This document shows positions 1,576 through 45,476 of a DNA stretch of 64,000 nt, piece after piece. The stretch comes from Pirellulales bacterium (GTDB lineage Bacteria > Planctomycetota > Planctomycetia > Pirellulales > JAEUIK01). Both the position numbers and the translations under genes were made by a program. The DNA lies in NCBI GenBank assembly GCA_019745975.1, contig JAIESQ010000019.1, positions 62,001 through 126,000 of the forward strand, in the 5' to 3' direction. The number at the start of each line of letters is the position of its first letter. Position 1 is the stretch's first letter. Below the pieces are notes generated by a model. That model was not told where the DNA came from and searched no databases. It saw only the letters and a program-made list of their open reading frames with translations.

Positions 1576-2118
1576 GTGGGACAAGAGGTACGCCGTCGAG
1601 TCGGCAGTTCAAACGATTCGCCGAAAGCCAAGGGTTTTTCTCAATGTAGCTTCGCAAGTGCTTGATATAGAGTGAGATAGCATGGTTCAGAAACGGCTGC
1701 TGTTCCGGCCGAATCATTTCGGTAAAAGCTAATCACGACGCCGCTGCTGGTCAGCAAGTGGAGCCTGGGGTTCGCGGCCTTCAACTTTTGTGCAAACCGC
1801 TGATGGAGTCCTTGATCGCGATTTGACCATCTGTTGACGCCCACCTGAGTCCTCCGCACTCATGGGCTGCCACAAGATTCTGACCGCAGAAATTCCAGAG
1901 CGTTGCAACGTAGGTTTCAATCGCTCGAAGGGGAATGCGCAACGTGCCAGCGCCACCTCGCCGGTAGACGGCTGCGCCGCCGACCCCGGAAGCAAAAAAA
2001 GGCCCCGAGATCGGTTGCTAATGGACGACCCGGCACAACAATTGCGACTCCTTTGCACCACCGTTAAGCGCGCACGCGGTAGCCCTCTCTTGGAGGCTTT
2101 TTCCAGCACTCGTTCAAA
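1576..2118. other. 540-bp stretch without a supported gene
   Basis: Short frames run on both strands, but none has a credible start with ribosome binding site or a recognisable family. A frame on the plus strand runs into the next gene, but that gene has its own Shine-Dalgarno and signal peptide start at 2132. The location between a tRNA and an accessory-looking cluster would suit an integration junction, yet no repeat of the tRNA 3' end and no integrase was seen in the following kilobases. Confidence 0.4.
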
Positions 2119-2131
2119 ATGGAGGTGTTCC

Positions 2132-2596
2132 ATGCGACTGTTTGCCCTAATGATCCTCGCGGCCGGGCTGATCCTCGCCGCCGCCGGCACCGCCGCCGCC
2201 GACCACCTGACCAAGGTTCCGGGAACCTGGGAGATGGTTTCCGGCGAACGGGACGGCAAGCCCCTGCCCAAGGAGGATGTCGAGCACGTCATGCTGATCT
2301 GCAAGGCGGAAGGGAACGCGATCAGGATCGTCGTGAAGAAGCACGACAAGGTCGTGACCGAGGCGACGGCCAAGCTCGCCAAGGCGGGCGACAAGCACGA
2401 CCAGTACGACATCACCTACTCCAAAGGCAGCGATGCTAAGGGTGAGAGCCTGAAGGGCAAGACTGTTCACGGCATCATCGCTGTGGAGGGCGACACCCTG
2501 AAGGCCTGTTGGCATGGGGAGGAAGGTTTCCCGAAGGAATTCACCGGGGCCAAAGGTTCCGGCTGTGCTCTCCGGACCTACAAGCGTGTCAAATGA
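2132..2596 (+). CDS. Secreted TIGR03067-type (lipocalin-like) protein, single domain
   Basis: A 154-residue protein with an N-terminal signal peptide (MRLFALMILAAGLILAAAG, cleavage near residue 24) and one TIGR03067-type domain beginning VPGTWEMVSGERDGKPLP. This domain is frequent in planctomycetes, is related in pattern to lipocalin-like beta barrels and has no established function. Two cysteines near the end (LKACWHGEEG and GSGCALRTYK) recur in the next protein of the cluster. The ATG at 2132 was chosen because GGAGG stands 7 bases before it and the signal peptide starts there. The gene opens the cluster that contains the MNIO enzyme. Export to the periplasm or cell surface is likely; substrate unknown. 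Confidence 0.8.
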   Translation: MRLFALMILAAGLILAAAGTAAADHLTKVPGTWEMVSGERDGKPLPKEDVEHVMLICKAEGNAIRIVVKKHDKVVTEATAKLAKAGDKHDQYDITYSKGSDAKGESLKGKTVHGIIAVEGDTLKACWHGEEGFPKEFTGAKGSGCALRTYKRVK

Positions 2597-2728
2597 GGAA
2601 ACACGGTGCCCGACGGTGGGAACCGAGTAGCCCGAGTCGTTCTGCCCGCAAGCCCGCCGAGCGTCGAGATGGTCCCGCCGTCGCGCCGGCTTGCGAACCC
2701 TCACCAAGACAAGAAAAGGAGTGTCCTC

Positions 2729-2863
2729 ATGACTCTCATCACCAAACCCGCGGCCAAGAAGAAGGCCGTTCGTGAGTTGAAGAACCTGCGCACGTCGGCC
2801 CAGGTGCGGAAGCTGGCCTTCTGCCACGGCTGTCACGCCGCTCTCCGTGGCCGGAGCAGGTGA
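2729..2863 (+). CDS. 44-residue basic peptide with C-terminal CHGCH, candidate modified peptide
   Basis: A short gene with a good ribosome binding site (AAAGGAG, 8 bases before the ATG). The first ~30 residues are rich in Lys, Arg, Ala and Leu and look helical, with no signal peptide. The end carries FCHGCHAALRG, two Cys and two His in five residues. Size, leader-like front and Cys/His tail are what one expects of a ribosomally made precursor acted on by a DUF692/MNIO enzyme, and such an enzyme lies 1.3 kb downstream on the same strand. It matches no precursor family I can name (not methanobactin, TglA or bufferin). Alternatively it could be a small zinc-binding protein or a chance frame. The precursor role is inference. 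Confidence 0.5.
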   Translation: MTLITKPAAKKKAVRELKNLRTSAQVRKLAFCHGCHAALRGRSR

Positions 2864-2903
2864 ATCCCGAAGGGCACGGACGCTGCGTCAACAAATCCCC
2901 ACG

Positions 2904-2927
2904 CCCCGGCCCGCTTCCGGGCCGGGG
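2904..2927 (+). terminator. Strong GC hairpin, terminator or attenuator candidate
   Basis: CCCCGGCCC (2904-2912) pairs fully with GGGCCGGGG (2919-2927) over a 6-nt loop. No T-run follows, so it is not a textbook intrinsic terminator. It sits between the 44-residue peptide gene and the large TIGR03067 gene and could set their relative expression or protect the upstream mRNA end, as is usual when a precursor must be made in excess. Confidence 0.4.
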
Positions 2928-2967
2928 CCAGTTGTAGCCCCGTACCTTCCTTGCGAGGAGGTGTTTT

Positions 2968-4182
2968 ATGCGGCTGTATGCCTTGATCTGCGCGGTCGGG
3001 TTGTTCGTCACGGCCATCGGCGCAACCCCCGATCACCTAGACGAAAGTGGGGGGACCTGGAAACTGGTCAAAGCCGAACGGGATGGCAAGCCCCTGCCCA
3101 AAGAGCAATTTGACCACGACATCACGCTGATCGTCACCAGGACCGAAGGAGGTGGGATCAAGTACGTCGCGAAGAAAAGCTACAACGTTGTAACCGAGGC
3201 GACGGTCCAGCAGCACAAGGCGGGTGACAAGTACGACCAGTGCGACGTCACCTTCAGCAAAGGCTGCAGCCAGGGGAAGACACTGCGCGGTATTCTCGGG
3301 GTGGAGGGGGACACCATGACGGCCTGCTGGCACCGGGGCCAAGGGTATCCTAAGGAGTTCACCGGGGCTAAGGATTTCGGTTGTACTCTGCGGATCCTCA
3401 AGCGGATTGCCGACAACGATCTGGCGAAGTTGGCGGGCACCTGGAACCTGATCGCCCTCGAACGCGACGGCAAGCCCGCGCCCAAGGATAAGGTCGCCGA
3501 CAAACTCGTGATCACCCGCATCTCGGGCGCAAAGAGCGCGTGTCACGTCCTGGTGATGGACCGCGGCAAGGTCCGTGCCGAGGCGACAATTCAGCCCACC
3601 GACGGCGCGAAGGACGAGAAGCACGACGGGCTCACGTACACGAGGTTCAACGTCACGTATAGCAAAGGCCGCCACGCGGGCACGACTCTTCACGCCAGTA
3701 TCCACGTGTACGGCGACGCCCTGAAGGCATTTTGGACCATACCGGACGAAGGGGGCGAGGAAGCCACGAAGACCTTTCATACCTTCCAGCGCGCCGACGA
3801 TGACCTGGCCCAGCTGCCGGGGACCTGGAAGCAGGTGTCCGCCGAGCGGGATGGCAAACCGCTGTCCAAGGAGGAGTTCGCCAAGTACCCCAATGTCCTC
3901 GTGATCACCCGCGTCAAGGGGCAGGAGGGCGAGTGCAAAGTCGTGATGAAAATGGGCGATGAGGTTGTGGCCGAGGCGATGCTGAAGCGCTCCGCGGGTG
4001 AAAAGGGCGCCAAGCACAACCACTACGAGGCCGCCTATTCCAAAGGCCGCCATGCGGGCACGACGCTGCACGCCACGATCGACGTGGACGGTGATACTCT
4101 GAAGGCCTGCTGGACCAAACCCGACGAAGGAGGCGACGGCGCCAGCAAGACCTGCCACACCTTACAGCGGGTCAAGCAGTGA
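2968..4182 (+). CDS. Secreted protein with three tandem TIGR03067-type domains
   Basis: A 404-residue protein with a signal peptide (MRLYALICAVGLFVTAIGA) followed by three homologous domains. They begin near residues 29 (GTWKLVKAERDGKPLP), 152 (LAGTWNLIALERDGKPAP) and 277 (LPGTWKQVSAERDGKPLS), each ~120 residues. Domains 1 and 3 keep the Cys pair seen in the single-domain protein upstream (MTACWHRG/FGCTL and LKACWTKP/KTCHTL); domain 1 has two more Cys (YDQCDVTFSKGC). The middle domain lacks the ACW cysteine (LKAFWTI). GAGGAGG precedes the ATG by 7 bases. The stop is directly followed by the MNIO gene, so both are co-transcribed. It may be a substrate or carrier of that enzyme. Function is unproven. 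Confidence 0.8.
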   Translation: MRLYALICAVGLFVTAIGATPDHLDESGGTWKLVKAERDGKPLPKEQFDHDITLIVTRTEGGGIKYVAKKSYNVVTEATVQQHKAGDKYDQCDVTFSKGCSQGKTLRGILGVEGDTMTACWHRGQGYPKEFTGAKDFGCTLRILKRIADNDLAKLAGTWNLIALERDGKPAPKDKVADKLVITRISGAKSACHVLVMDRGKVRAEATIQPTDGAKDEKHDGLTYTRFNVTYSKGRHAGTTLHASIHVYGDALKAFWTIPDEGGEEATKTFHTFQRADDDLAQLPGTWKQVSAERDGKPLSKEEFAKYPNVLVITRVKGQEGECKVVMKMGDEVVAEAMLKRSAGEKGAKHNHYEAAYSKGRHAGTTLHATIDVDGDTLKACWTKPDEGGDGASKTCHTLQRVKQ

Positions 4183-5082
4183 ATGATCCCCATGATCGGC
4201 GCCACGAAAACCGCGTTCGAGAAAGCAAAACCACGACCACTCTCCGAGACTCGAAGCGTGCCCGCGATCGGTTACGCGCTTTTTGAGGAGAACCGCCACG
4301 TCCTCGACGACCCGGCCCTGAATGCCGTCGAGATCACCTTTGAGCGCGCCGCCGACCCGTTGCGCCTGGGCCGCTGCCTCGGCGAGCTTGATTTCGCCTA
4401 CGTCAGCGTCCACGCGTTGCAGCTTTCGCCGGCCAGCCCCGACCCGCCGGCGCGTGCTTACCTCGATGCCCTGCGGGCGCTTGCCGAGGAGAACGGGGCG
4501 GCCGCGGTCAGCGACCACCTCGGGTTCACGCGCGATGGCACCGGCGGCGTCGAGATGGGTCACTTCACCCCGCCTCCGTTCACCGCCGCTGCCCTGGACG
4601 CCACCTGCCGAAACCTCGACCTCATCCAGGACTATTTCCGCGGCCGGCCCTTCTTCCTGGAAAACATCGCCTCCCTGTTCCACTTCCGCGGCACGATGAG
4701 CGAGGCCGAGTTCTTGACCTGCGTGCTCCAGAGGACCGGCTGCGGCTGGCTGCTGGATGTCACGAACCTGTACGCCAACGCCCGCAATCACGGGTACGAC
4801 GCCTCCGAGTTCCTGCGCCGGGTGGTGCCCGCCGCCCGCCGCCTCCAGATGCACCTGTCGGGCGGCTTCTTCGACGCCGAGGCCGGCCTGTATATCGATA
4901 GCCATTCCCGGGCCGTTCCCGAGGAGGTTTGGGCCCTGTACCGCCAGGCTCTGGAACTGGGACGGGGGAAAGTGGCGGCGGTCTTCATCGAGCGCGACCA
5001 GGACTTCCCCGACGAGGCCGGCTGGCGTGCCGAGGTCCGCAAGGCCCGGCGGATTGCCGAAGAGACGGAGGTCAGAGCATGA
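4183..5082 (+). CDS. DUF692-family multinuclear non-haem iron oxidative enzyme (MNIO)
   Basis: A 299-residue TIM-barrel enzyme of the MbnB/TglH/BufB type. The family uses two or three irons to oxidise Cys or other residues in ribosomal peptides. The metal-binding set is present: H77 (VSVHALQLS), D111-H112 (SDHLGF), E160-N161 (FFLENIA), D192 (LLDVTNLYANARNHG), H224 (QMHLSGG), D239 and H241 (DSHSRAVPEEVW), and E270-R271-D272 (FIERDQDFP). Length is normal. It starts immediately after the stop of the triple TIGR03067 gene and overlaps the next gene by 4 bp (ATGA), so the partner below is translationally coupled. Family assignment is firm; the substrate is inferred from the neighbours. Confidence 0.93.
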   Translation: MIPMIGATKTAFEKAKPRPLSETRSVPAIGYALFEENRHVLDDPALNAVEITFERAADPLRLGRCLGELDFAYVSVHALQLSPASPDPPARAYLDALRALAEENGAAAVSDHLGFTRDGTGGVEMGHFTPPPFTAAALDATCRNLDLIQDYFRGRPFFLENIASLFHFRGTMSEAEFLTCVLQRTGCGWLLDVTNLYANARNHGYDASEFLRRVVPAARRLQMHLSGGFFDAEAGLYIDSHSRAVPEEVWALYRQALELGRGKVAAVFIERDQDFPDEAGWRAEVRKARRIAEETEVRA

Positions 5083-5837
5083 CTGATCTAACTGAGCCAG
5101 AATCACCTTACGCCGAACAGCTCCGCCGCTATGCGCGGGCCCTGGCGGCGGGCCGCGCCGACGACGTGAGCGCCGCCCTGGCCGAAGGCTCGTCGCCCGC
5201 CCACGTGATGCTGTTCACCGAGGGCAACCGCGCGAAACGGCACGAAAAGCTCCGGGCACAACTGGAGTTCGTGGCCGTGGCCTTTACCGGCTTCGAGAAC
5301 CTATTGGCGGCCTACCTCCGCGACCGACCGCCGGCCGCCTCTGACACGGGCGCCGGCGACGCGGACCGGTTCCTGGAGTGGCTGGGGAAGACCTGCGGCC
5401 TGACGCCCGAGCAGCACGACTACGTCGCGTGCCAGCGGGCGCGGCACGCTGTAGAGGCAGAGGCCTTCAGAAATCGCGCCGGTCACGTGCGCTTCCAGGA
5501 ACTCTGGGCCACGGCGCAGCGGCGGGCGGCTGCTCTGGACACGGACGCCGGCCTGCGGGTGCATCTGAACCCGATCCGCGCCTGGTCGCGGTTCGCCACC
5601 GCGGCACTACTGCATACCGAAAGGGTACTGCCGGCCGACGTGCTCTTTTTCGCGGTCGGGACCGAGATCTGCACGGCCGTACTAGAGCCTAAAGGCCGGG
5701 AACGGATCGAAGAGTTGGCCTCCTACGGCCCTTGCACGCTGAATCAATGGGCGGGACGGACCAGGCACGCCGACGGGGGAGAACTCGTTGAACTCTGCCG
5801 CGACCTGGCCGAGATGGGGCTCGTGGCGTTCAGTTAG
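5079..5837 (+). CDS. Putative MNIO partner protein
   Basis: A 252-residue soluble protein whose ATG overlaps the MNIO stop codon. MNIO enzymes nearly always work with a partner that binds the precursor (MbnC, TglI or BufC/DUF2063 type), and the position here is exactly where that partner is encoded. The N-terminal ~170 residues are helical and charged; a conserved-looking centre reads HLNPIRAWSRFATAALL. The last ~80 residues (FFAVGTEICTAVLEPKGRE to LCRDLAEMGLVAFS) have the length and pattern of a winged-helix or RRE-like peptide-binding domain. I do not recognise the family by sequence; the role comes from context. Confidence 0.6.
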   Translation: MTDLTEPESPYAEQLRRYARALAAGRADDVSAALAEGSSPAHVMLFTEGNRAKRHEKLRAQLEFVAVAFTGFENLLAAYLRDRPPAASDTGAGDADRFLEWLGKTCGLTPEQHDYVACQRARHAVEAEAFRNRAGHVRFQELWATAQRRAAALDTDAGLRVHLNPIRAWSRFATAALLHTERVLPADVLFFAVGTEICTAVLEPKGRERIEELASYGPCTLNQWAGRTRHADGGELVELCRDLAEMGLVAFS

Positions 5838-5894
5838 GCGGGCCTCAAGCATACGCGGGGTGCCGGAATTAGCGGGGGGAAGTTTCCAACGGCG

Positions 5895-45077: not shown

Positions 45078-45476
45078 ATGAATCGTACTCTTGCTCTCGG
45101 CCTGGCGATCTTCCTCGCCGTGGCCGGCATCGCCCTCTTGGGCGGTGAACAGAAGGCTTCGGCCGGGCACTGTCATGGTTGCTGTGCGTGTGATTGTGGT
45201 GGCGATGATTGCAGCTCGTGCGGCTGCCACCATCGTTGCCATCGCTGCCATCGCTGCTTCCGTCGTTGCCATCGCTGCCATCGCTGCCACCATTGCCACC
45301 ATTGCCATTGCTCGAGCTGCCACAGCGCTTGCAACGGCTGCAGCAATGGACACGAGGCCGCTGAAGGCGACGCCGAGGGTGGCGAAGCCGAACCCAAGCC
45401 GACCGAAGACGCTGGCGCCGAGCCCGCCGCCAGCCGCACTCCGTTCGGTTTCCGTCAGGTCAGCTTCCGTCGCTAG
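45078..45476 (+). CDS. Secreted His/Cys-rich protein, probable metal binder
   Basis: A 132-residue protein with a signal peptide (LGLAIFLAVAGIALLGGEQKASA). The mature front, about 60 residues, is almost only Cys, His and Arg: HCHGCCACDCGGDDC, then runs of CHRCHRC, CHHCHHCHC and CSSCHSACNGC. The tail is acidic (EAAEGDAEGGEAEPK) and ends FGFRQVSFRR. The CH(R/H) triplet repeats would bind several metal ions (Cu, Zn or Ni), like metallothioneins but exported. GGGAGGA precedes the ATG; a strong terminator follows. The repeat arises from a 9-bp DNA unit, so it could expand and contract. Not assigned to a named family. Confidence 0.82.
   Translation: MNRTLALGLAIFLAVAGIALLGGEQKASAGHCHGCCACDCGGDDCSSCGCHHRCHRCHRCFRRCHRCHRCHHCHHCHCSSCHSACNGCSNGHEAAEGDAEGGEAEPKPTEDAGAEPAASRTPFGFRQVSFRR

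Follow-up and report, generated by a model that had tools for sequence, protein, structure and literature searches.

A 44-aa open reading frame in the window (the whole 64,000-nucleotide stretch of planctomycete DNA that was analysed) very probably encodes a RiPP precursor belonging to an MNIO system with a PME-type 2 partner, and the peptide is most probably the substrate of the neighbouring MNIO enzyme, judging from sequence comparisons. The preliminary description had proposed the frame as a candidate precursor, and this proposal is now supported by a conserved leader, a variable core, and co-occurrence with the MNIO across genomes.

A conserved small gene upstream of an MNIO enzyme

The frame translates as MTLITKPAAKKKAVRELKNLRTSAQVRKLAFCHGCHAALRGRSR and contains the core stretch LAFCHGCHAALR (Table 1). 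Neither Pfam nor NCBIfam returned a match for it at E 1. Read by eye, its basic N-terminus contains neither a signal peptide nor a hydrophobic stretch, and the maximal hydrophobic moment of the front is 0.41. The preliminary description had reported a ribosome binding site, FCHGCH near the end of the frame, a position two genes ahead of the MNIO enzyme, and the lack of a signal peptide, unlike bufferin precursors. All of this holds: the binding site lies ahead of the ATG, FCHGCH occupies residues 31–36, the MNIO gene is the second gene downstream, and the absence of a signal peptide by reading is accompanied by the absence of DUF2063 from the partner protein.

Table 1 Features of the precursor gene and its cassette in the window
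Feature	Position	Strand	Basis
Cassette extent common to L136 (G722)	2113..5848	+	blastn
Secreted TIGR03067 protein, one domain	2132..2596	+	TIGR03067 5.2e-13 over 2150–2593; signal peptide by reading
Ribosome binding site AAAAGGAG of the 44-aa precursor	2714..2721	+	Read before ATG
MNIO RiPP precursor (probable)	2729..2863	+	ORF from ATG through stop, 44 aa; homologues; pN/pS
Conserved leader motif VRELKNLR, residues 14–21	2768..2791	+	Alignment A3
Core motif C32-H-G-C35-H36	2822..2836	+	Same in L013; aligns with CCRCC of relatives
Hairpin behind precursor, 11-bp stem and 4-base loop	2903..2928	+	Folding
Secreted TIGR03067 protein, three domains	2968..4182	+	TIGR03067 9.7e-23, three stretches; signal peptide by reading
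MNIO enzyme (MbnB_TglH_ChrH)	4183..5082	+	PF05114 7.4e-57; fold; iron ligands
MNIO partner, PME-type 2 (helical and RRE-like domain; as modelled)	5079..5837	+	Model; Foldseek

A precursor family with one kind of leader and variable cores

A scan with the MNIO protein recovered nine planctomycete loci (L013–L021) whose enzymes are 62–80% identical to that of the window; 20 further loci at ≤46% identity lay outside the precursor survey. The earlier suggestion to look for small frames near other planctomycete MNIO genes and to align their fronts proved productive, as an upstream frame with the same kind of leader was present at all nine loci and the aligned fronts share that leader. Small conserved frames stand ahead of MNIO genes of this subfamily throughout the class, and the outcome named beforehand as refuting the proposal, a lack of such frames at homologous positions, was not observed. 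The precursor of L013 (MTVVTKPAAPKKAIRELKNLRTSTRGQSLKLAFCHGCHAVHPDRSK, 46 aa) sits at the equivalent place in a different planctomycete family, and KLAFCHGCHA is identical between it and the window precursor. The remaining loci of this set have CCRCCRC-type cores, save L019 with CRSCRSCYSC repeats, and L020 holds three precursor copies. Since a homologous frame with KLAFCHGCHA is found at L013, and kin of the leader at 9/9 planctomycete MNIO loci, a chance frame is unlikely, and the 44-aa frame is by these comparisons a genuine conserved gene rather than a random one.

Searches with the precursor alone brought in G257, G266 (two copies), G315, and G353, followed by 13 more genomes. Across the fetched loci, 30 distinct peptides including that of the window were recognised by the precursor HMM (a weak match at L147 was left out), and three diverged precursors in G642, G426, and G560 bring the family total to 33. 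Homologues of the window precursor were located at L013–L021, L003, L054–L058, and L130–L146. Beyond the window and L013, the family comprises 31 frames in related planctomycetes, most of which carry the leader [VI]-R-E-[LIV]-x-x-L-R, while their core endings differ: (CCR)n, (CRS)n, or (CxRG)n. In a 17-row alignment (A3), R15, E16, R21, and C35 are invariant and L20 nearly so; the VRE motif is broken in later-found members, for example at L145 and L146. The C-H-G-C-H of the window stands in register with the C-C-R-C-C of relatives in this alignment, so the cores look like C-x-x triplet repeats. The window core has two cysteines only, most relatives at least five, and the leader and triplet register are all that the window precursor and most relatives have in common. 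This planctomycete family is apparently undescribed, with a conserved front half and a Cys-rich end that varies between species.

A single-sequence search of 392 genomes of the phylum with the 44-aa query returned mainly weak chance matches, and among those read only that in G257 (L003) was real; the gene after this precursor resembles a Fic-type protein by reading. Weak HMM matches in G156, G203, G208, G210, and G211, none of them better than E 8e-4, were kept out of the family count, and those in G399 (frame unrelated by reading) and G639 (internal stops in the frame) were rejected. At L153 and L154 (G426 and G560), a diverged 65-aa precursor with period-four CxRG repeats lies upstream of the MNIO. 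Family precursors were also observed at a distance from any MNIO, at L054 (G257), L055 and L056 (G266), L131 (G613), and L132 (G484), where modification would be in trans.

The MNIO enzyme and its partner protein

The model of the window MNIO (pLDDT 85) has TglH (8hi7_B, 6.9e-15) and MbnB as its nearest folds. The iron ligands of TglH given in the available part of PMC10880893 (His71, His107, Glu151, Asp184, Asn187, His216, Asp229, His231, and Glu258) match H77, H112, E160, D192, N195, H224, D239, H241, and E270 by order and spacing (9/9), and these nine residues are invariant among the 14 MNIOs compared. The precursor is therefore linked to an MNIO with an intact predicted active site.

The partner gene overlaps the MNIO gene by four bases. 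Its product has no relevant Pfam or NCBIfam match and no DUF2063 signature, and a PDB sequence search with the partner alignment likewise returned nothing relevant, whereas the fold search did find matches: the best Foldseek hits of the model (pLDDT 86) are TglI (8hi7_A) and NGO1945 (3dee), with prob 1.00 and E ~1e-3. An RRE-like domain is predicted from this TglI/NGO1945-like fold. In the accessible part of PMC12452194, PME-type 2 partners are linked to precursors without a signal peptide, and the window partner, as modelled, fits PME-type 2 as described there. PME-type-1 enzymes are said in the portion of PMC12668002 consulted to yield 5-thiooxazole broadly; we predict no product here, because TglH performs a reaction other than 5-thiooxazole formation.

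Precursor and MNIO co-occur across genomes

One set of 397 genomes of the class was searched for both the precursor HMM (strong match, <1e-8) and the MNIO subfamily (≥400 bits). MNIO scores were bimodal, with 27 genomes at ≥416 bits, three at 254–320, and the rest at ≤180 among the matches listed. A strong precursor match was present in 22 of the 397 genomes, and 21 of these 22 also encode the MNIO subfamily, against 6 of the 375 others (p 1.5e-28); because some loci had come first through the enzyme, the count was repeated on the 17 genomes found via the precursor alone, with the MNIO subfamily in 16 (p 1e-22), both p values inflating the number of independent events, as the genomes are related.

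The sole genome with a strong precursor match and no MNIO of this subfamily is G610. Precursor and MNIO lie about 1.5 kb or less from each other in 17 of the 22 genomes and are apart in G257, G266, G484, and G613. Six MNIO genomes have no A3 match: G642, G426, and G560 carry diverged upstream Cys-rich precursors, G609 and G611 LanM-linked ones, and in G615 no candidate precursor was found despite the MNIO subfamily. Adding the three diverged and two LanM-linked cases to the 21 gives a candidate precursor in 26 of the 27 MNIO genomes.

Selection on the precursor and a hairpin behind it

The window and L013 precursors differ by 9.5 synonymous and 14.5 non-synonymous differences over 44 codons (pN/pS 0.50), the ratio being higher in the leader (0.74) than in the core (0.27), on few differences. 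Six pairs of CCR-type precursors gave pN/pS of 0.11–0.23, and two pairs of copies within L020 gave 0.45 and 0.12. By these ratios, the precursor appears to be under purifying selection.

The strong hairpin already noted behind the precursor is a perfect one that begins 39 bases past the stop, and the 90 bases 3′ of the stop fold with a z of −4.5 relative to dinucleotide shuffles. It is a family-wide feature: a stem-loop occurs within 90 bases of the stop in all 16 precursor genes folded (of 33 known), with z of −2.0 or lower in 13 and −1.7 to −1.9 in the weakest three. The stems share their place behind the precursors but not their sequence, from which we argue that the structure is kept.

The cassette and its variants

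DNA similarity to G722, the genome of L013, stops at both cassette ends, and no blastn match was found between the flanks, compared over the initial 14 kb of the window and 13 kb of G722. A transposase-like frame, identified by reading, lies directly past the cassette at L013 (6817–7290), which fits a mobile cassette. In both the window genome (G000) and G722, TIGR03067 was found only within the cassette (E 1e-5), and tblastn of both window TIGR03067 proteins against 17 loci matched L013 only. The name of this protein family refers to planctomycetes, yet both genomes carry cassette copies only.

A PF13748-type membrane protein without an ATPase domain is encoded behind the partner at 18 of the 28 distinct testable loci, that is, those with sequence beyond the partner (L134, L135, L136, and L138 being merged with L015, L014, L013, and L018, and L016, L018, and L139 being excluded as their contigs end there). 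The bearers are L014, L015, L017, L019–L021, L057, L071, L130, L133, L137, L140, L141, L143–L145, L153, and L154. The protein is absent behind the partner in the window and at L013, L058, L072, L073, L142, L149, L150, L151, and L152, and PF13748 was not found across the whole genomes G000, G722, and G353. It is a candidate exporter of the product, and the TIGR03067 proteins and PF13748 may be alternative routes of product handling.

Neighbouring genes were scanned for metal-related functions using 76 of the 115 listed frames around subfamily loci; 39 were dropped by hand, comprising every frame at L149 and L151 and individual frames elsewhere that looked doubtful or were judged to overlap, or lie opposite, genes for a precursor, MNIO, or partner. 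PF13748 alone recurred in more than four members, and no recurring metal-handling family was found among these neighbours. In the window cassette, no transporter and no protease were found. Elsewhere in the window (45078–45476, forward strand), a secreted 132-aa protein with a signal peptide by reading carries dense CHRCHRCHHCHHCHC repeats; binding of metal, or modification in trans by an MNIO, is conceivable for it.

A second MNIO cluster with LanM in the same genome

A second cluster of the window genome (G000:C124, L073 718–10198) encodes a CusB-like protein, a CusA/CzcA pump (TIGR00914), an MNIO 57% identical to that of the window, a partner, a precursor, and a LanM (TIGR03897). The precursor is a 69-aa mersacidin-type peptide (TIGR03898) whose core C-S-G-C-H-G is nearly identical to the C-H-G-C-H-A of the window. 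The MNIO–partner–precursor–LanM order recurs in G609 (L149) and G611 (L151, with two precursor copies), the MNIOs of these three clusters form one clade in the tree (100/100), and the LanM-linked precursors carry C-S-[GS]-C-H-G, similar to the window core motif. This precursor type is present in 4 of the 397 genomes, in one of them weakly.

When all loci were read in six frames (approximately 2.07 million residues, overlapping copies included), the pattern K[LIV][AS]-x(0,3)-C-x-[GS]-C-H-[GA] matched only LanM-linked precursors and the window type, a result that is suggestive only, since the pattern was drawn from the matches themselves; the shorter C-x-[GS]-C-H-[GA] matched two further places. 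It is possible, if rather doubtful, that one planctomycete MNIO clade serves two unrelated leaders (VRE-type and mersacidin/LanM), the C-x-[GS]-C-H-[GA] core having been passed between them or having arisen twice. If so, this genome would make two products with one metal-binding core chemistry, the window cassette giving a plain MNIO peptide and the CusA-linked cluster an MNIO–lanthipeptide hybrid.

Alternative explanations

The C-H-G-C-H of the core could instead be a CXXCH haem-c site, with the frame a fragment or a small c-type cytochrome; the letters fit, as do those of L013 and of the precursors linked to LanM. Haem of c-type cytochromes is attached outside the cytoplasm, however, and the precursor has no export signal by reading. 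In other family members, a leader of the same kind is followed by CCRCC, CRSC, or CNRGC, and the precursor gene remains tied to the MNIO, which makes a haem site very improbable. Somewhat less remote, and still unlikely, is a small protein that regulates or binds metal, stays unmodified, and has a gene that simply travels with the cassette: the peptide is small, basic, and contains Cys and His, and relatives lie away from the MNIO in four genomes. Against this, the leader is conserved while the core changes, and the MNIO accompanies the precursor in 16 of the 17 genomes reached through the precursor alone.

The TIGR03067 proteins might be the real MNIO substrates and the 44-aa frame degenerate, as the frame lies between two secreted proteins that contain Cys in each lineage, TIGR03067 was found nowhere else in either genome, and MNIOs could modify proteins according to the review PMC12452194. 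Yet the small precursor is present at loci where tblastn found no such protein, and KLAFCHGCHA is identical in both lineages; we give this reading a similarly small chance. A chance frame without function is exceedingly improbable given the same start, leader, and core in L013, the pN/pS of 0.5, and 31 further family members. The reading as a precursor modified by the adjacent MNIO is thus preferred.

Proposed mechanism and implications

Under the precursor model, the leader (VRELKNLR and its surroundings) would be bound by the RRE-like domain of the partner, which would pass the peptide to the multi-iron MNIO for oxidation of C32 and C35 in the C-terminal core. The hairpin 3′ of the precursor gene would make the precursor mRNA more plentiful than the enzyme mRNAs. 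After a putative cleavage and export, the product may be transported or retained outside the cytoplasm by the two secreted TIGR03067 proteins, which are lipocalin-like; in place of this pair of the window lineage, most relatives encode PF13748, a membrane protein of ABC type. The modified peptide may bind metal, with copper as a first guess. We put this role forward tentatively; it is favoured because genes of CusB/CusA type precede the sister MNIO of this genome, and the heavy-metal pump adjoining the LanM-linked cluster makes it directly testable.

The cassette provides a predicted set of defined substrate, enzyme, and partner for an MNIO clade with no described precursor in the literature searched. 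The family, in which one kind of leader precedes four or more types of core, lends itself well to studying which leader features MNIO enzymes recognise and how they alter cysteines that stand close together. The sister clusters with LanM suggest that a single peptide can receive both MNIO and lanthipeptide chemistry.

Comparison with known systems

The pearlin/3-thiaglutamate system (TglA–TglH–TglI) shares with the window the nearest solved MNIO fold (8hi7_B), a TglI-like partner, the nine iron ligands, and a precursor without a signal peptide. TglH reportedly modifies a Cys that is appended to the C-terminus of TglA, whereas the cysteines of the window peptide are encoded inside the core. Methanobactin precursors have a short leader and a core with CxxC-type cysteines, a layout shared with the window along with the MNIO fold (MbnABC), but the window MNIO scores 35.8 bits against an MbnB cut-off of 325 and an MbnC match is absent. 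The bufferins and captophorins (BufABC, oxazolin, fontiphorin) show the same precursor–MNIO–partner order, Cys-rich cores, and proposed metal handling. They differ in that the window precursor has no Sec signal peptide by reading and the partner no DUF2063, the mark of PME-type 1, and the window MNIO, at 162 bits, stays below the MNIO_BufB cut-off of 310; of the bufferin signatures, DUF2282 was not matched (Pfam/NCBIfam, E 1) and EGKCG is absent from the 44-aa precursor. Class II lanthipeptides (TIGR03898, TIGR03897) are represented by the precursor of the second MNIO cluster, with its C-S-G-C-H-G core, but the window precursor has another leader and LanM is absent among the cassette genes.

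The adjamnio families -1, -2, -7, -I, and -IV are likewise MNIO-linked candidate precursors, of which, in the available part of PMC12452194, -1, -2, and -7 have no signal peptide, -7 has a CxxC, -I and -IV are 119–293 aa long, and the examples come from Massilia, Hahella, and Novilysobacter. None of these, by the descriptions in that part, is a 40–65-aa planctomycete peptide with a CCR or CHGCH core. The literature searched gave no description of this family of precursors, the variety of its cores, its link with TIGR03067, or the LanM hybrids. In kind, the window system is thus an already known one, an MNIO RiPP, with a precursor family that is apparently new.
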